DNA of 64,000 nucleotides, taken from contig JAHDRN010000005.1 in the NCBI GenBank assembly GCA_018433245.1, positions 124,001-188,000 on the forward strand, in the 5' to 3' direction. Origin of the DNA: Candidatus Proruminimicrobium quisquiliarum (GTDB lineage Bacteria > Elusimicrobiota > Endomicrobiia > Endomicrobiales > Endomicrobiaceae). Below are positions 41,988 to 49,332 of the stretch, in pieces (position 1 is the stretch's first letter; each line of letters starts with the position of its first letter). The notes beneath the pieces are model-generated. The model worked only from the letters and a program-made list of their open reading frames with translations. It made no database searches and had not been told where the DNA came from. The translations under genes and the position numbers were made by a program.

Positions 41988-43031
41988 ATGTATAATTTAA
42001 ACAAACTATCTGAAATATGCCTCGGCAAATTTGTTTTAATAACAAATCCAAAAGACATTTATTATCTGACCGGAGCCGATTTTGACGGATTTTGGCTTTT
42101 GACCTACAAAAAGAAAGTCTTCGCAGTAACTTCGGAAATGGTTAAAAACCAGGCTTCAGAATATTTTGGAAAGAATATTGCGGTGGTTGCGTCTTCATCT
42201 TCTCTCAGTTCCGCCATAATTGAACTCTGTAAAAAAAATAAAATTAAAGAAGTAACCGCGGATTCAAACATATTGAAACCGGTTTTTGACGCGGTATCTG
42301 AAAATCTGAAAAAAAACGGCATAACGCTGAAAACAGCTCCTGAAATAACAAAATACTTAAGAAGCATTAAAACTCCGGATGAAATAAAAAACATAAAAAA
42401 ATCATGCGATATAATTTCAGCCGTTTACGGTTACATTAAAAAATTTATAAAGCCCGGTATGACGGAACTTGACATATATTTTAAGATAGCAGAATTATTT
42501 GCAAAATATAAAGTTGAGCCGTCTTTTAAAACAATAGTGGCAAGCGGGCCGAACTCGGCAAACCCACACCATGTAAGCACAAGCCGTAAAATATTAAAAA
42601 ACGATATAATTTTAATTGATATGGGATGTGTTTATAAAGGCTATTGCAGCGATTTGACACGTGTTGTATTTTTAGGTAAAATCAACGTTCAAACTAAAAA
42701 GATATGGACATTGGTTAAAAATGCCCATGCTGTTTCTTTGAAAACTGTTAAAAACGGGCAAAAATGCCGTTTTGTTGACGAATCTGCAAGACTTGAGATA
42801 AAAAAAGCTGGGTTTGCGGATAATTTCATACACGGCACCGGACACGGAGTCGGGCTTGATATTCACGAATATCCTTCGGTTTCACAAAAATCAAAAGATA
42901 TTTTAAAACAAAATATGGTAATAACGATAGAACCCGGTATTTATTTTAACGGCAAGTTTGGCATAAGAATAGAAGACACGGTATTAGTCACAAAAAACGG
43001 ATATAAAATCCTGACTAATGCGCAATATTAA
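41988..43031 (+). CDS. M24-family Xaa-Pro peptidase (PepP/PepQ-like)
   Basis: 347 residues. An N-terminal creatinase-like domain (about 1-115), then the M24 pita-bread domain. Metal ligands are visible: Asp in LIDMGCVYKGYCSDLTR (two), His in GTGHGVGLDIHEYP, Glu in IEPGIYF and in GIRIEDTVLV. It would cleave Xaa-Pro bonds in cytoplasmic peptides. efp follows after 12 bp, a frequent neighbour of this family. No ribosome-binding site is seen and the promoter predicts a leaderless message. Confidence 0.92.
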   Translation: MYNLNKLSEICLGKFVLITNPKDIYYLTGADFDGFWLLTYKKKVFAVTSEMVKNQASEYFGKNIAVVASSSSLSSAIIELCKKNKIKEVTADSNILKPVFDAVSENLKKNGITLKTAPEITKYLRSIKTPDEIKNIKKSCDIISAVYGYIKKFIKPGMTELDIYFKIAELFAKYKVEPSFKTIVASGPNSANPHHVSTSRKILKNDIILIDMGCVYKGYCSDLTRVVFLGKINVQTKKIWTLVKNAHAVSLKTVKNGQKCRFVDESARLEIKKAGFADNFIHGTGHGVGLDIHEYPSVSQKSKDILKQNMVITIEPGIYFNGKFGIRIEDTVLVTKNGYKILTNAQY

Positions 43032-43043
43032 GGAGAAAACGTA

Positions 43044-43607
43044 ATGGTTTCAACATCTGACTTTAAAAACGGATTGGTAATTGTAGTTGATAATGAACCT
43101 TATCAGATAACATGGTTCCAAAATCACAAGCCCGGAAAAGGCGGCGCGGTGATGAGAGTAAAATTAAGACACGTAAAAAAAGGCGGAACTATTGACAGAA
43201 CTTTCAAATCCGGCGAAAAATTTGAAGCATTGAGCGTATCCAGACAAAAAAAACAGTTTTTATACGCCGACGGCGAAAACTATAATTTCATGGATATGAA
43301 TTCTTACGAACAAATCTCTATCCCGAAAGACAAACTTGACGGAAAAGAAATTTATTTAAAAGAAAATCAGGAAGTTGACGCAATATATCTTGAAGAAGAC
43401 TTAATAGGCATAGATATGCCTCTTATAATAGAGATGTCCATAATAGAAGCTGAACCCGGCATTAAGGGCGATTCAGTAACAAATTTAACAAAATTCGCAA
43501 AAATAGAAAGCGGAGCCGAAATAAAAGTTCCTTTGTTTATTAAAGTAGGGGACAAAATAAAAGTTGACACCAGGACCGGCGAATACGTTGAAAGAGTATC
43601 GCAGTAG
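43044..43607 (+). CDS. efp: Elongation factor P
   Basis: 187 residues, three OB-like domains. EF-P relieves ribosome stalling at polyproline stretches. The tip loop is HKPGKGGAVMRV, with Lys32 at the position that is post-translationally modified in many bacteria. The C-terminal KVGDKIKVDTRTGEYVERV is typical. AAGGAG precedes ATG. Modification enzymes are not in the window. Confidence 0.97.
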   Translation: MVSTSDFKNGLVIVVDNEPYQITWFQNHKPGKGGAVMRVKLRHVKKGGTIDRTFKSGEKFEALSVSRQKKQFLYADGENYNFMDMNSYEQISIPKDKLDGKEIYLKENQEVDAIYLEEDLIGIDMPLIIEMSIIEAEPGIKGDSVTNLTKFAKIESGAEIKVPLFIKVGDKIKVDTRTGEYVERVSQ

Positions 43608-43634
43608 TTTTGATTTAATATGAAAGAGGTTTTT

Positions 43635-44045
43635 ATGAATTCAAATGAAATAAAAAAGTTTTTGGAATCAATCAGAGAAACTGATATTGAAGAAATGGAA
43701 TTTGAATCCGGAGACACGTCGGTTTATTTAAAAAAAAGCGAAGTAATGAAAAAAGTTATTCCGGAAGCTCCTAAAAAACCCGTTGAAAAATCTCCGATAG
43801 TTCCGATAAAATCAACAATGGTCGGAACTTTTCACAGTTCTCCCGCTCAAGACAGACCGCCGTTTGTCGTTGAAGGAGATCATCTTGAAGTCGGACAGAA
43901 AATCGGAACGATAGTCGCGATGAGAGTCAATAAAGACGTCATGGCTACTACAAAAGGAAAAGTCACAGAGGTAAAAATTAAAGACGGTCAGTCCGTAGAA
44001 TACGGACAGGAATTATTTTTGGTTGACACATCGGATATCGTATAG
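43635..44045 (+). CDS. accB: Biotin carboxyl carrier protein-like AccB lacking the biotinyl lysine
   Basis: 136 residues from ATG 43635, which has AGAGG 5 nt upstream; ATG 43620 lacks a site. The chain has the BCCP layout: helical N-terminus, a short Pro/Lys linker, then the biotinyl domain (STMVGTFHSSPAQDRPPFV, GDHLEVGQKIG, KGKVTEVKIKDGQSVEYGQ). The biotin site is normally EAMKM. Here it reads VAMRV: arginine (AGA, 43923-43925) replaces the lysine that is biotinylated and valine replaces the glutamate. Spacing on both sides is unchanged, so this is a substitution, not a misalignment. accC follows directly. It may be a non-biotinylated regulatory homologue, or a decayed copy with the functional BCCP elsewhere. 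Confidence 0.88.
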   Translation: MNSNEIKKFLESIRETDIEEMEFESGDTSVYLKKSEVMKKVIPEAPKKPVEKSPIVPIKSTMVGTFHSSPAQDRPPFVVEGDHLEVGQKIGTIVAMRVNKDVMATTKGKVTEVKIKDGQSVEYGQELFLVDTSDIV

Positions 44046-44064: not shown

Positions 44065-45414
44065 ATGTTTAAAAAAATATTGATAGCAAACAGAGGCGAA
44101 ATAGCATGCAGAGTAATCCGAGCTTCAAGAGAACTCGGCATTAAGACGGTTGCAATTCATTCCGAAGCCGACAAAACTTCAATGCACGTTAAAATGGCCG
44201 ACGAAGCCGTTTGCGTAGGTCCTGCCTCGGCAAGCGAAAGTTATTTGAATATCCCGAGCATAATATCAGCCGCCGAAATTACGGGCGCAGACGCCATTCA
44301 TCCGGGTTACGGTTTTTTAGCGGAAAATACTTATTTTGCCGAAGTCTGCGAAACATGCGGCATCACCTTTATAGGTCCTAAAAAAACTTCCATTGAGAAA
44401 ATGGGCGATAAAATTGAAGCAAGAAAACTGATGATAAAATCAAAGGTTCCGGTTGTTCCGGGTTCTGACGGTCCTGTATCAGCCGATGACCCTAAAATAT
44501 TTGAATTGGCAAAAAAAATAGGTTATCCGGTAATAATCAAAGCAACTGCCGGCGGCGGCGGAAAGGGAATGAGAATAGTAGTAAGCGAAGAATCTCTGAA
44601 AAATGCTATTCTGATGGCCCAAACAGAAGCAAAAGCCGCTTTCGGAAATCCGGATGTTTATATGGAAAAATACGTTGAAGAACCTCATCATATAGAATTT
44701 CAGATTTTGGGCGACGTACACGGAAAAGTAGTTTATCTTCCGGAAAGAGACTGTTCTATACAGAGAAGACACCAAAAACTAGTTGAAGAAAGCCCTTCTC
44801 CCTTTATAAGCGATTCTTTAAGAAAAAAAATGGGTAAAGCCGCAAAAAGCGCAGCCGAAGCGGTAGGCTACATAACGGTCGGAACTGTTGAATTTTTAGT
44901 TGATAAGCATATGAATTTTTATTTTATGGAGATGAACACAAGAATACAGGTTGAACATCCTATTACAGAAACAATTACCGGTATTGATTTGGTAAGAGAA
45001 CAAATCAGGCTTGCTGCAGGCGAGAAGTTGTCGTTTGATTCAAGCGATATAAAGATAAACGGTCATTCCATAGAATGCCGAATCAACGCTGAAGATCCTG
45101 ATAAAGATTTCATGCCTTCACCCGGTAAAATAGGACACTTATATTTACCCGGAGGTCCCGGAATCAGAGTTGACTCTCATGTCTATTCCGGTTATACAAT
45201 TCCTCCTTTTTACGACAGTTTAATAGCAAAAATAATAGCTCACGGAGAAACAAGACAGGAAGCGATCATAAGAATGTCCAGAGCTCTTAAAGAAACTCAT
45301 ATTGAAGGAATAAGAAATACTGCTTCCCTCCATTCAAAGATAATGGAAAACGAGCAGTTTCATAACGGAATCGTAGCAACCGACTTTTTGGCAAAACACG
45401 TTTTCAATAAGTAA
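44065..45414 (+). CDS. accC: Biotin carboxylase subunit of acetyl-CoA carboxylase
   Basis: 449 residues, full length. ATP-grasp enzyme that carboxylates biotin on [20 protein letters not shown] at the start, [27 protein letters not shown] (ATP lid), [31 protein letters not shown] and ECRINAEDP are all intact. It sits 19 bp after accB with a GGAGA ribosome-binding site. The contrast between a perfect AccC and an AccB that lacks the biotin lysine is notable. accA and accD are not here. Confidence 0.97.
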
Positions 45415-46536: not shown

Positions 46537-46933
46537 AAAATTCATACGGATTTTAGACACAAACCTAAACAGATGCAAAGAAGGATTAAGAGTAATAGAA
46601 GACACCGCGAGATTTGTTTTTAACGATGAACAGATTTATAAAAAAACAAGACTCATACGCCACAGCGCTACAAAATATCTTGACGGCTATTACGGCAAAA
46701 TGCTTTTGTCAAGAGACAGCGTTAAGGATTCCGGCAGAAAAGTTTCAGAACAGCTCAGAATAAATCTTGAAAACATAACTGCCGCAAATTTTAAAAGAGT
46801 TCAGGAATCTTTAAGAGTTCTTGAAGAATATTCAAAAATAATAAATTTTGATACCGCTTTAAAGTTTAAAGCTTTAAGATACAAAGTTTATACGATTGAA
46901 AAAACTATGATGCTTAAATATTTTAAAAAATGA
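46529..46933 (+). CDS. thiD2: ThiD2-type hydroxymethylpyrimidine phosphate kinase, stand-alone
   Basis: About 134 residues from ATG 46529. Repeated motifs RILDTNLNRCKEGLRVIED and its echo ANFKRVQESLRVLEEYSK, plus RHSATKYLDGYY and LRYKVYTIE, match the ~130-residue domain often fused in front of thiamine-phosphate synthase (ThiE) and known as ThiD2. ThiD2 phosphorylates HMP-phosphate to the diphosphate for thiamine synthesis and lacks the HMP salvage activity of ThiD. Here it stands alone, overlapping rfaE2 by 8 bp and metH by 4 bp. The function follows from the family; no other thiamine gene is nearby. Confidence 0.78.
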   Translation: MDKKFIRILDTNLNRCKEGLRVIEDTARFVFNDEQIYKKTRLIRHSATKYLDGYYGKMLLSRDSVKDSGRKVSEQLRINLENITAANFKRVQESLRVLEEYSKIINFDTALKFKALRYKVYTIEKTMMLKYFKK

Positions 46934-49332
46934 AAAAAGAAGAATTTAAAAAATTATTATCCGAAAAAATATTAATTCTGGACGGAGCCACGGGAACGCA
47001 GCTTCAAAAACTCGGCTTTATGCAGAACGTCACGACAGCCGAAGAACTTAACATAAAATATCCCGAAAGAATAAGCGCCGTACACGCCTCATATATTGAA
47101 GCCGGATCTGACATAATATTTTCAAACACTTTCGGAGCAAACAAATTAAAACTGGCTCATTACTCTCTTGAGAATAAAATTGAAGAAATTATAGAAAAAG
47201 GCGTTCTTATAGCAAGAAATGAAGCAAAAAAAACAAATGCTCTTGTCGCCGGCGACATATCGTCGGTAGGTTCATATTTGCAGCCTCTTGGCCCCGTATC
47301 AATAGACGATGCGTTTGATGCTTTCAGGCAGCAGGCTTTTCTTTTAAAAAACGCAGGCGTTGACCTTATAGTTATTGAAACAATGACAGAAATCAAAGAA
47401 CTTAAAGCCGCGATTCTTGCCGCAAAAGACGTATACGACGGACCGATAATGGTTCAAATGACTTTTTCTTATGACGGCTCAACAGTAACAGGAACGGATA
47501 TTTTAAGTTTTATAGCGATGGCCGAAAGCCTTAAAGCCGACGCAATAGGAATGAATTGTTCGGTAGGTCCCGAAGAACTTTTAAAACTTGCAAAAATCAT
47601 GACGGCAAACACAAATCTTCCGGTTTCTTTTAAACCTAACGCCGGAATGCCGCAGCTTATAAACAGAGAAACAGTTTTTCCGGGAACAAAAGAAGAATTC
47701 GTATCGGTTGCCGTTAAAGCCTATCAAGCCGGAGTAAACATGTTAGGCGGATGCTGCGGAACCGATCCCGAATACATAAAACTTCTTTCGTCTCAGCTAA
47801 AAAACAAAAAACCGGCATACAGAAAGGAAGTTTCTCATCATCTTCTTTCAACAAGAACAAAAGCCGTTGACCTTGACTCGCTTAAAAGACCCGTAATAAT
47901 AGGAGAGCGAATAAACCCGACCGGAAGAAAAATATTTCAGGAAGAGCTTTCAAGAAACGTTTTTTCTCTTGTAAAACACGAAGCTAAAACTCAGGCAAAC
48001 GCCGGAGCAAATATTCTTGACGTAAATATGGGCGTTCCGGGAGCGGACGAAACGTCTCTTTTAATACAGGCCGTAAACGAAGTGCAGGAAATAGTAAATA
48101 TTCCTTTATGCATAGATTCCAGTTTTGAAAACGCGCTGTCGTCGGCATGCAGACACTGCGCCGGAAAACCGCTTGTAAATTCCGTAAACGGCGAAACTGA
48201 AAAATTAAAATCGGTTCTGCCTATCGTAAAAAAATACGGAACTTCCGTAATAGCTTTAACTGTTGACGAACAGGGAATACCGGCCACATGGCAGAAAAGA
48301 ATTGAAATAGCCGAAAAAATATTATCTTACGCCGATAAATACGGCATAGACCGAAAAGAAATTATATTTGATTATCTTACGTTATCGGCAAGTTCTTCAT
48401 CGGACCAAATTTCAGAAACTCTTAACGCCATAAAAGAATCAAAAAAAATATTCCCGCAGTGCAAAACAGTGCTCGGCGTTTCAAATGTCTCTTTCGGACT
48501 TCCTTCAAGACAGACTATAAATTCAACTTTCTTAAAAATGGCTTTAAAAGCAGGACTTGACGTTGCGATATGCAATCCGTCCGAAAACTGGACCATTAAC
48601 GACGAATACGCAAAAGCTCTTCTTGAAAACCGCGATCCTAACGCAAAAAATTACGTTTTAAAGCATTCAAACGCCGAAAAGAAAAAACAGGCGCAAAATA
48701 AAGTTTTTTCGCCCGAAGAAAAACTTTTTAACGCAATAATAGACGGAGACAAAGACTATGTCGTGCCGATAACCAGAGAAGTCATCAAAGAAATAAAAGA
48801 CCCTATGTTTATTTCAAACGAAATCATACTTAAAGCGTTAAATACAGTAGGTGAAAAATTTAATTCAAAAGAATTTTTTCTGCCGCAGGTAATACTAGCG
48901 GCCGAAGTCGCACAAACAGCCTTTGCTTTGATAAAACCCATGATAAAAAACAACTCGCAGAATAAAACATGCAAAATAGTAATGGCAACGGTAAAAGGCG
49001 ACGTGCATGATATAGGCAAAAACATAGTTTCGGCCGTGCTTGAAAGCTTCGGCTTTGAAGTTACGGATCTCGGCAAAAACGTTGAAGCCGAAACTATTAT
49101 TGAAAAGGCAAAAGAAATTGACGCGGATATAATAGGATTGTCGGCCCTTATGACTACCACAATGATAGAAATGGAAAAAATTATTGAATTGAAAAATATT
49201 GCCAACCTGAAAGCAAAAGTTATAATAGGCGGAGCGCCTGTTACGCAATCTTTTGCCGACAGCATTAAAGCCGAAGGCTATTCCAAAGATGCGATTGAAG
49301 CGGCCAACCTTATTAAAAATCTTTTAAAATAA
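46930..49332 (+). CDS. metH: Cobalamin-dependent methionine synthase, short form without reactivation domain
   Basis: 800 residues against about 1,230 for full MetH. Order: homocysteine-binding domain with zinc cysteines (MNCSVGPEE and LGGCCGTDPE, about 1-300), methyltetrahydrofolate-binding domain (VIIGERINPTGRK, NAGANILDVNMGVPG, about 315-580), B12 cap (about 600-680) and B12 Rossmann domain with KGDVHDIGKNIV (about 680-800). The C-terminal AdoMet-binding reactivation domain is absent; some thermophiles and anaerobes encode it separately. Overlap with thiD2 is ATGA. Together with nrdJ it shows the cell depends on cobalamin. Confidence 0.94.
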   Translation: MKKEEFKKLLSEKILILDGATGTQLQKLGFMQNVTTAEELNIKYPERISAVHASYIEAGSDIIFSNTFGANKLKLAHYSLENKIEEIIEKGVLIARNEAKKTNALVAGDISSVGSYLQPLGPVSIDDAFDAFRQQAFLLKNAGVDLIVIETMTEIKELKAAILAAKDVYDGPIMVQMTFSYDGSTVTGTDILSFIAMAESLKADAIGMNCSVGPEELLKLAKIMTANTNLPVSFKPNAGMPQLINRETVFPGTKEEFVSVAVKAYQAGVNMLGGCCGTDPEYIKLLSSQLKNKKPAYRKEVSHHLLSTRTKAVDLDSLKRPVIIGERINPTGRKIFQEELSRNVFSLVKHEAKTQANAGANILDVNMGVPGADETSLLIQAVNEVQEIVNIPLCIDSSFENALSSACRHCAGKPLVNSVNGETEKLKSVLPIVKKYGTSVIALTVDEQGIPATWQKRIEIAEKILSYADKYGIDRKEIIFDYLTLSASSSSDQISETLNAIKESKKIFPQCKTVLGVSNVSFGLPSRQTINSTFLKMALKAGLDVAICNPSENWTINDEYAKALLENRDPNAKNYVLKHSNAEKKKQAQNKVFSPEEKLFNAIIDGDKDYVVPITREVIKEIKDPMFISNEIILKALNTVGEKFNSKEFFLPQVILAAEVAQTAFALIKPMIKNNSQNKTCKIVMATVKGDVHDIGKNIVSAVLESFGFEVTDLGKNVEAETIIEKAKEIDADIIGLSALMTTTMIEMEKIIELKNIANLKAKVIIGGAPVTQSFADSIKAEGYSKDAIEAANLIKNLLK

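Follow-up and report, generated by a model that had tools for sequence, protein, structure and literature searches.

A BCCP paralogue encoded beside accC in an Elusimicrobiota genome lacks the biotin-accepting lysine and is probably a BADC-like non-carrier subunit

ACC carries out the committed step of fatty-acid synthesis. The BADC proteins of the plant plastid are homologous to BCCP but have no biotinylation motif; they act on the BC-BCCP subcomplex (PMC11926652). They were called inhibitors, and in later work they are described as assembly 'glue' (PMC11926652; PMC7712654). Non-catalytic 'glue' subunits are also known from bacterial acyl-CoA carboxylases, according to work cited in PMC11926652. 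As far as the open-access papers searched show, non-biotinylated BCCP relatives that shape ACC assembly or activity have been described only in plants, and no precedent for a bacterial non-biotinylated BCCP paralogue was found there. Here we describe a candidate for such a protein in the window, a 64,000-nucleotide stretch of the Candidatus Proruminimicrobium quisquiliarum genome (Table 1).

Table 1. Features of the accB2 locus, in window coordinates.
Feature	Position	Strand	Basis or remark
pepP, Xaa-Pro peptidase, upstream neighbour	41988..43031	+	order kept in relatives
efp, elongation factor P, upstream neighbour	43044..43607	+	order kept in relatives
accB2, BCCP homologue without biotinyl Lys	43635..44045	+	136 aa, P0001; Pfam Biotin_lipoyl, NCBIfam BCCP TIGR00531
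N-terminal helix-hairpin module, residues 1-35	43635..43739	+	by homology the AccC/oligomer-contacting part; contact role inferred
Barrel-sandwich (biotinyl) domain with thumb region	43797..44027	+	fold predicted intact, AlphaFold model
Degenerate biotin motif VAMRVN (relatives EAMKII)	43914..43931	+	comparison with relatives
Codon AGA, Arg97 at biotinyl-Lys position	43923..43925	+	translation; alignment to E. coli BCCP
accC, biotin carboxylase, 449 aa, full length	44065..45414	+	TIGR00514; alignment to solved enzymes; single copy

Throughout, AccB2 denotes the accC-linked copy, which in this genome is the window gene, and AccB1 the BCCP encoded beside pnp. The translation of accB2 begins MNSNEIKK...GTIVAMRVNKDVMATTKGK... 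The start at 43635 is preferred over 43620, since a plausible ribosome site, AGAGG, lies at 43625-43629 and homologues likewise start at the equivalent position. AccB2 has a biotinyl domain (47.6 bits against Pfam Biotin_lipoyl) and lies in an operon with accC, and it lacks the third mark of a functional BCCP, a biotin-accepting lysine in (E)AMK(M/L/V/I). Against TIGR00531 it scores 90.9 bits, under the cut-off of 115.2, as does AccB1, just, with 114.3. The initial annotation had placed an arginine exactly at the biotinylated lysine with unchanged spacing, and this holds: in the phmmer alignment Arg97 stands opposite the lysine of EAMKMM in E. coli BCCP (4hr7_B), and the stretch is free of gaps. 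A base-calling error at this codon is very unlikely, as separate assemblies carry VAMRVN (G065) and EAMRVN (G077). Biotin acceptance at the usual site is therefore predicted not to be possible. In a Chloroflexus BCCP domain, biotinylation was abolished when the lysine was replaced (PMC11077971).

AccB2 could still be a carrier if it were modified on another lysine, such as K100, which lies three residues past the site in VAMRVNKDV. We consider this highly improbable. K100 is not a replacement, and was rejected as a compensating lysine, because relatives that retain the acceptor lysine also have it (EAMKIIKDV). Moreover, in the structural model it sits in the strand that follows the hairpin tip (residues 98-103).

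Biotin carriage appears to be provided for elsewhere. The source genome (G000; 1.94 Mb, completeness rated 100%) has three Biotin_lipoyl matches: AccB2, a GcvH-type protein and AccB1, whose gene adjoins pnp on contig C1 and whose motif, EAMKVMNEI, is intact. It also encodes a full-length BirA (323 aa) that has both the DNA-binding and the ligase part, and one copy each of AccA, AccC and AccD. A working ACC with AccB1 as its carrier is thus predicted to be encoded, and with all of these components present biotin carriage would be covered in trans. Of the explanations put forward in the initial annotation, that another BCCP exists elsewhere is borne out, and the genome search it proposed recovered both the intact BCCP and birA. 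Its suggestion that the AccB2/AccC pair serves a different, unusual carboxylase fared poorly. Nothing in the G000 genome was found to favor this explanation, carboxyltransferase-family matches occur only at the accA and accD places, the one Biotin_lipoyl match besides the two AccB proteins is of GcvH type, and no AccC paralogue was found in the genome save two long frames. With a single AccA, AccC and AccD, a second carboxylase was rejected, and we regard this explanation as extremely improbable. The two long frames (L037 and L038 on contig C23; lengths 1095 and 1101 aa, separated by about 17 kb) are weakly similar to AccC and have the size of the carbamoyl-phosphate synthase large subunit.

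The surroundings of accB2 are those expected of a BCCP gene. The order pepP-efp-accB2-accC is usual among relatives, and the genes are separated by 12, 27 and 19 bases, respectively. AccC scores 728 bits against TIGR00514 (cut-off 626.5) and aligns over its full length with biotin carboxylases of solved structure. Farther along the window, at 46930-49332, lies a MetH-like ORF of 800 aa that, judged from its translation, apparently lacks a reactivation domain, stopping past the B12-binding part.

The fold of AccB2 is predicted to be intact as well. In an AlphaFold model built from 45 AccB2 sequences, the barrel-sandwich domain has pLDDT values mostly of 94-98 and superposes on E. coli BCCP (1bdo/4hr7) at 0.7 Å over 75 columns and on Arabidopsis BCCP1 at 1.7 Å. 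Arg97 occupies the hairpin tip between strands 89-95 and 98-103. The N-terminal module is modeled as a helix (residues 3-14) and two strands (20-25 and 28-33), and a weak sequence match, as well as a profile match, links it to the N-terminal part of E. coli BCCP. This module is the best kept part of AccB2, with 32 of 35 residues identical between the two Lys-less genera.

Such a pattern could mean that AccB2 is kept mainly to regulate accBC expression rather than as an ACC subunit. Autoregulation of the operon has been proposed for E. coli AccB, and both the position of accB2 directly upstream of accC and the conservation of the N-terminal module would suit this role. However, the barrel-sandwich domain is strongly kept too, with 73 of 76 residues identical between two species of genus g1, which is beyond the need of a sensor that uses only its N-terminus. 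A role mainly in expression is therefore decidedly unlikely.

Selection on the gene was estimated from the comparison of G000 with G065 (the STB_19 MAG), the two species of g1; with dS near 1 the comparison approaches saturation, and all of its dN/dS values are approximate. The Lys-less accB2 has a dN/dS of 0.033 (95% CI 0.012-0.074), beside 0.039 for accC and 0.033 for efp. The live accB1, at 0.149 (0.085-0.253), lies above it. By this approximate measure the Lys-less accB2 appears to be under purifying selection as strong as that on accC. The initial annotation had read the open frame and well-kept domain as arguing against random decay, and these values agree: with the frame intact, a pseudogene is very unlikely. 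Between the same two species, AccB1 (L001:1252-1728) is the faster-changing protein, with 76% identity against 94% for AccB2, mostly in the linker.

The change in AccB2 is concentrated at the biotin motif. Columns invariant in 13 Lys-bearing relatives were compared with the three Lys-less genomes; three of the six in the motif had changed in all three genomes, versus one of 59 elsewhere (Fisher p 0.002, a description more than a test, as the motif was pre-selected by the finding and the lysine itself is one of the three changes). These comparisons suggest that constraint has been lifted from the motif and retained on the rest of AccB2.

Both paralogues occur in nearly all relatives in the Endomicrobiaceae (Elusimicrobiota); AccB1 is encoded next to pnp, AccB2 within the efp-accC operon. 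In this order the usual AccB2 motif is EAMKIIKDV. VAMRVN is found in G000 and G065, and EAMRVN in G077, of the neighboring genus g14. These three genomes form one group on an AccB2 tree computed without the motif columns (SH-aLRT 84) and are also grouped on the AccC tree (support 95). Because of this grouping, the simplest history would be a single loss of the lysine before the g1/g14 split, with the glutamate lost later in g1. The initial annotation had raised the possibility that the arginine is lineage-wide; it is found in these g1 and g14 genomes, but most Endomicrobiales keep EAMKII. The loss looks local, because the AccB2 of close relatives retains the lysine, and in most Endomicrobiales AccB2 is probably still a carrier. 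For that reason the loss in g1 and g14 could be a mild change of little consequence, which counts against the reading favored below.

Three other genomes depart from the usual arrangement. A Lys-bearing AccB2 in G059 (L072:2521-2961) has neither efp nor accC within the 5.3 kb examined, unlike the rest of the order. In G020 and G071 (MAGs 94% and 88% complete), a Lys-bearing AccB2 was found alone; the missing AccB1 is possibly an assembly gap.

Across the phylum, the AccB1/AccB2 pair is present in nearly all Elusimicrobiota examined, and AccB1 can serve as an internal control for lysine retention. Within these counts the AccB1 lysine is kept in 77 of 77 genomes, whereas that of AccB2 is absent in 19 of 102, spread over eight of 15 families (among these genomes, one is additionally represented by a spurious entry). 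On the AccC tree the loss amounts to seven changes, six of them forced by well-supported branches; in the group formed by Elusimicrobiaceae (f11) and family f14 the direction of change is ambiguous. The accC-linked motif reads EAMR in G084, G086 and G089, from other classes or families, ETMR in G110 and EAMQ in G102. In f11 and f14 the motifs are strongly altered: the lysine site is occupied by Ser, Gly, Ala or Asn, and some instead have a lysine inside a broken motif, such as EMNK. Every member of the Elusimicrobiaceae genus g33 that was read has a Lys-less AccB2. In another genus of this family, g27, six AccB2 proteins (L176-L178, L183, L187 and L192) have a lysine at the site within a broken motif (EMNK, ESHK or EAGK).

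This asymmetry might be expected if AccB2 were a surplus carrier in the course of being lost: AccB1 would leave the lysine of AccB2 free to drift, and the rest of the protein would follow. The lysine that is always kept in AccB1 and lost several times in AccB2, often by a single step to Arg, fits such a course. Against it, accB2 is kept in the accC operons that were read, constraint on the Lys-less g1 copies is as strong as on accC, and the Lys-less form persists through all g33 members that were read. Furthermore, the new motif is itself kept, with five of six residues common to the g1 and g14 forms. We consider gradual loss unlikely.

The reading we favor, and think probable from sequence and by analogy, is that AccB2 is a BCCP paralogue without biotin that works with AccC and AccB1 in a structural or regulatory role, much like BADC in plants. 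AccB2 would be an inert paralogue that still folds as a BCCP and has kept its N-terminal module and its place upstream of accC, and AccB1 would supply the biotin arm that is carboxylated by AccC and discharged by AccA/AccD. Most likely AccB2 would occupy subunit sites within the AccC-AccB complex and, without carrying biotin itself, act there as a scaffold or for tuning. We infer that it binds AccC and AccB1 physically and that it is without biotin in the cell; that it aids assembly rather than inhibits is our guess. The earlier proposal of a non-carrier partner that regulates AccC comes close to this reading and gains weight from the purifying selection and recurrent loss; the role of such a partner could be in regulation or in assembly.

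For the phylum as a whole, we lean slightly toward an ACC built on a divided BCCP, in which AccB1 is the obligatory arm and AccB2 a structural or regulatory subunit with a dispensable lysine; conversion to a non-carrier of the BADC kind would have happened about six times, among others in the sampled members of one Elusimicrobiaceae genus. If true, bacteria would have a recurrent equivalent of plant BADC. Since neighboring genera hold versions with and without the lysine, direct tests of the passage from carrier to scaffold or regulator would become possible, and such a system would be relevant to the question of whether BADC-type subunits inhibit ACC or assist its assembly.

Among known systems, AccB2 resembles the canonical bacterial AccB/BCCP (TIGR00531; E. 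coli 4HR7) in domain order, N-terminal module, thumb region, fold and efp-accB-accC position, and differs from it in the missing acceptor lysine and in falling under the family cut-off. As a non-catalytic assembly helper it would be comparable in role to the 'glue' subunits of bacterial acyl-CoA carboxylases, which are not known to be BCCP homologues. There is also a close likeness to the BADC of the plant plastid heteromeric ACCase (PMC11926652; PMC7712654), drawn from published descriptions and taken as one of predicted role: AccB2 is a BCCP homologue without the biotinylation motif, it coexists with a true BCCP and BirA encoded in the same genome, and it has been maintained after the loss of its lysine, under purifying selection and in two genera. 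Unlike BADC, it is bacterial and encoded beside accC, and little beyond its motif has changed, whereas the Arabidopsis BADCs are 25-30% identical to BCCP (PMC11926652). The losses in Elusimicrobiota are also separate and repeated. An inactive BCCP paralogue is thus familiar from plants; as far as can be told, the bacterial, recurrent and operon-encoded version is new.
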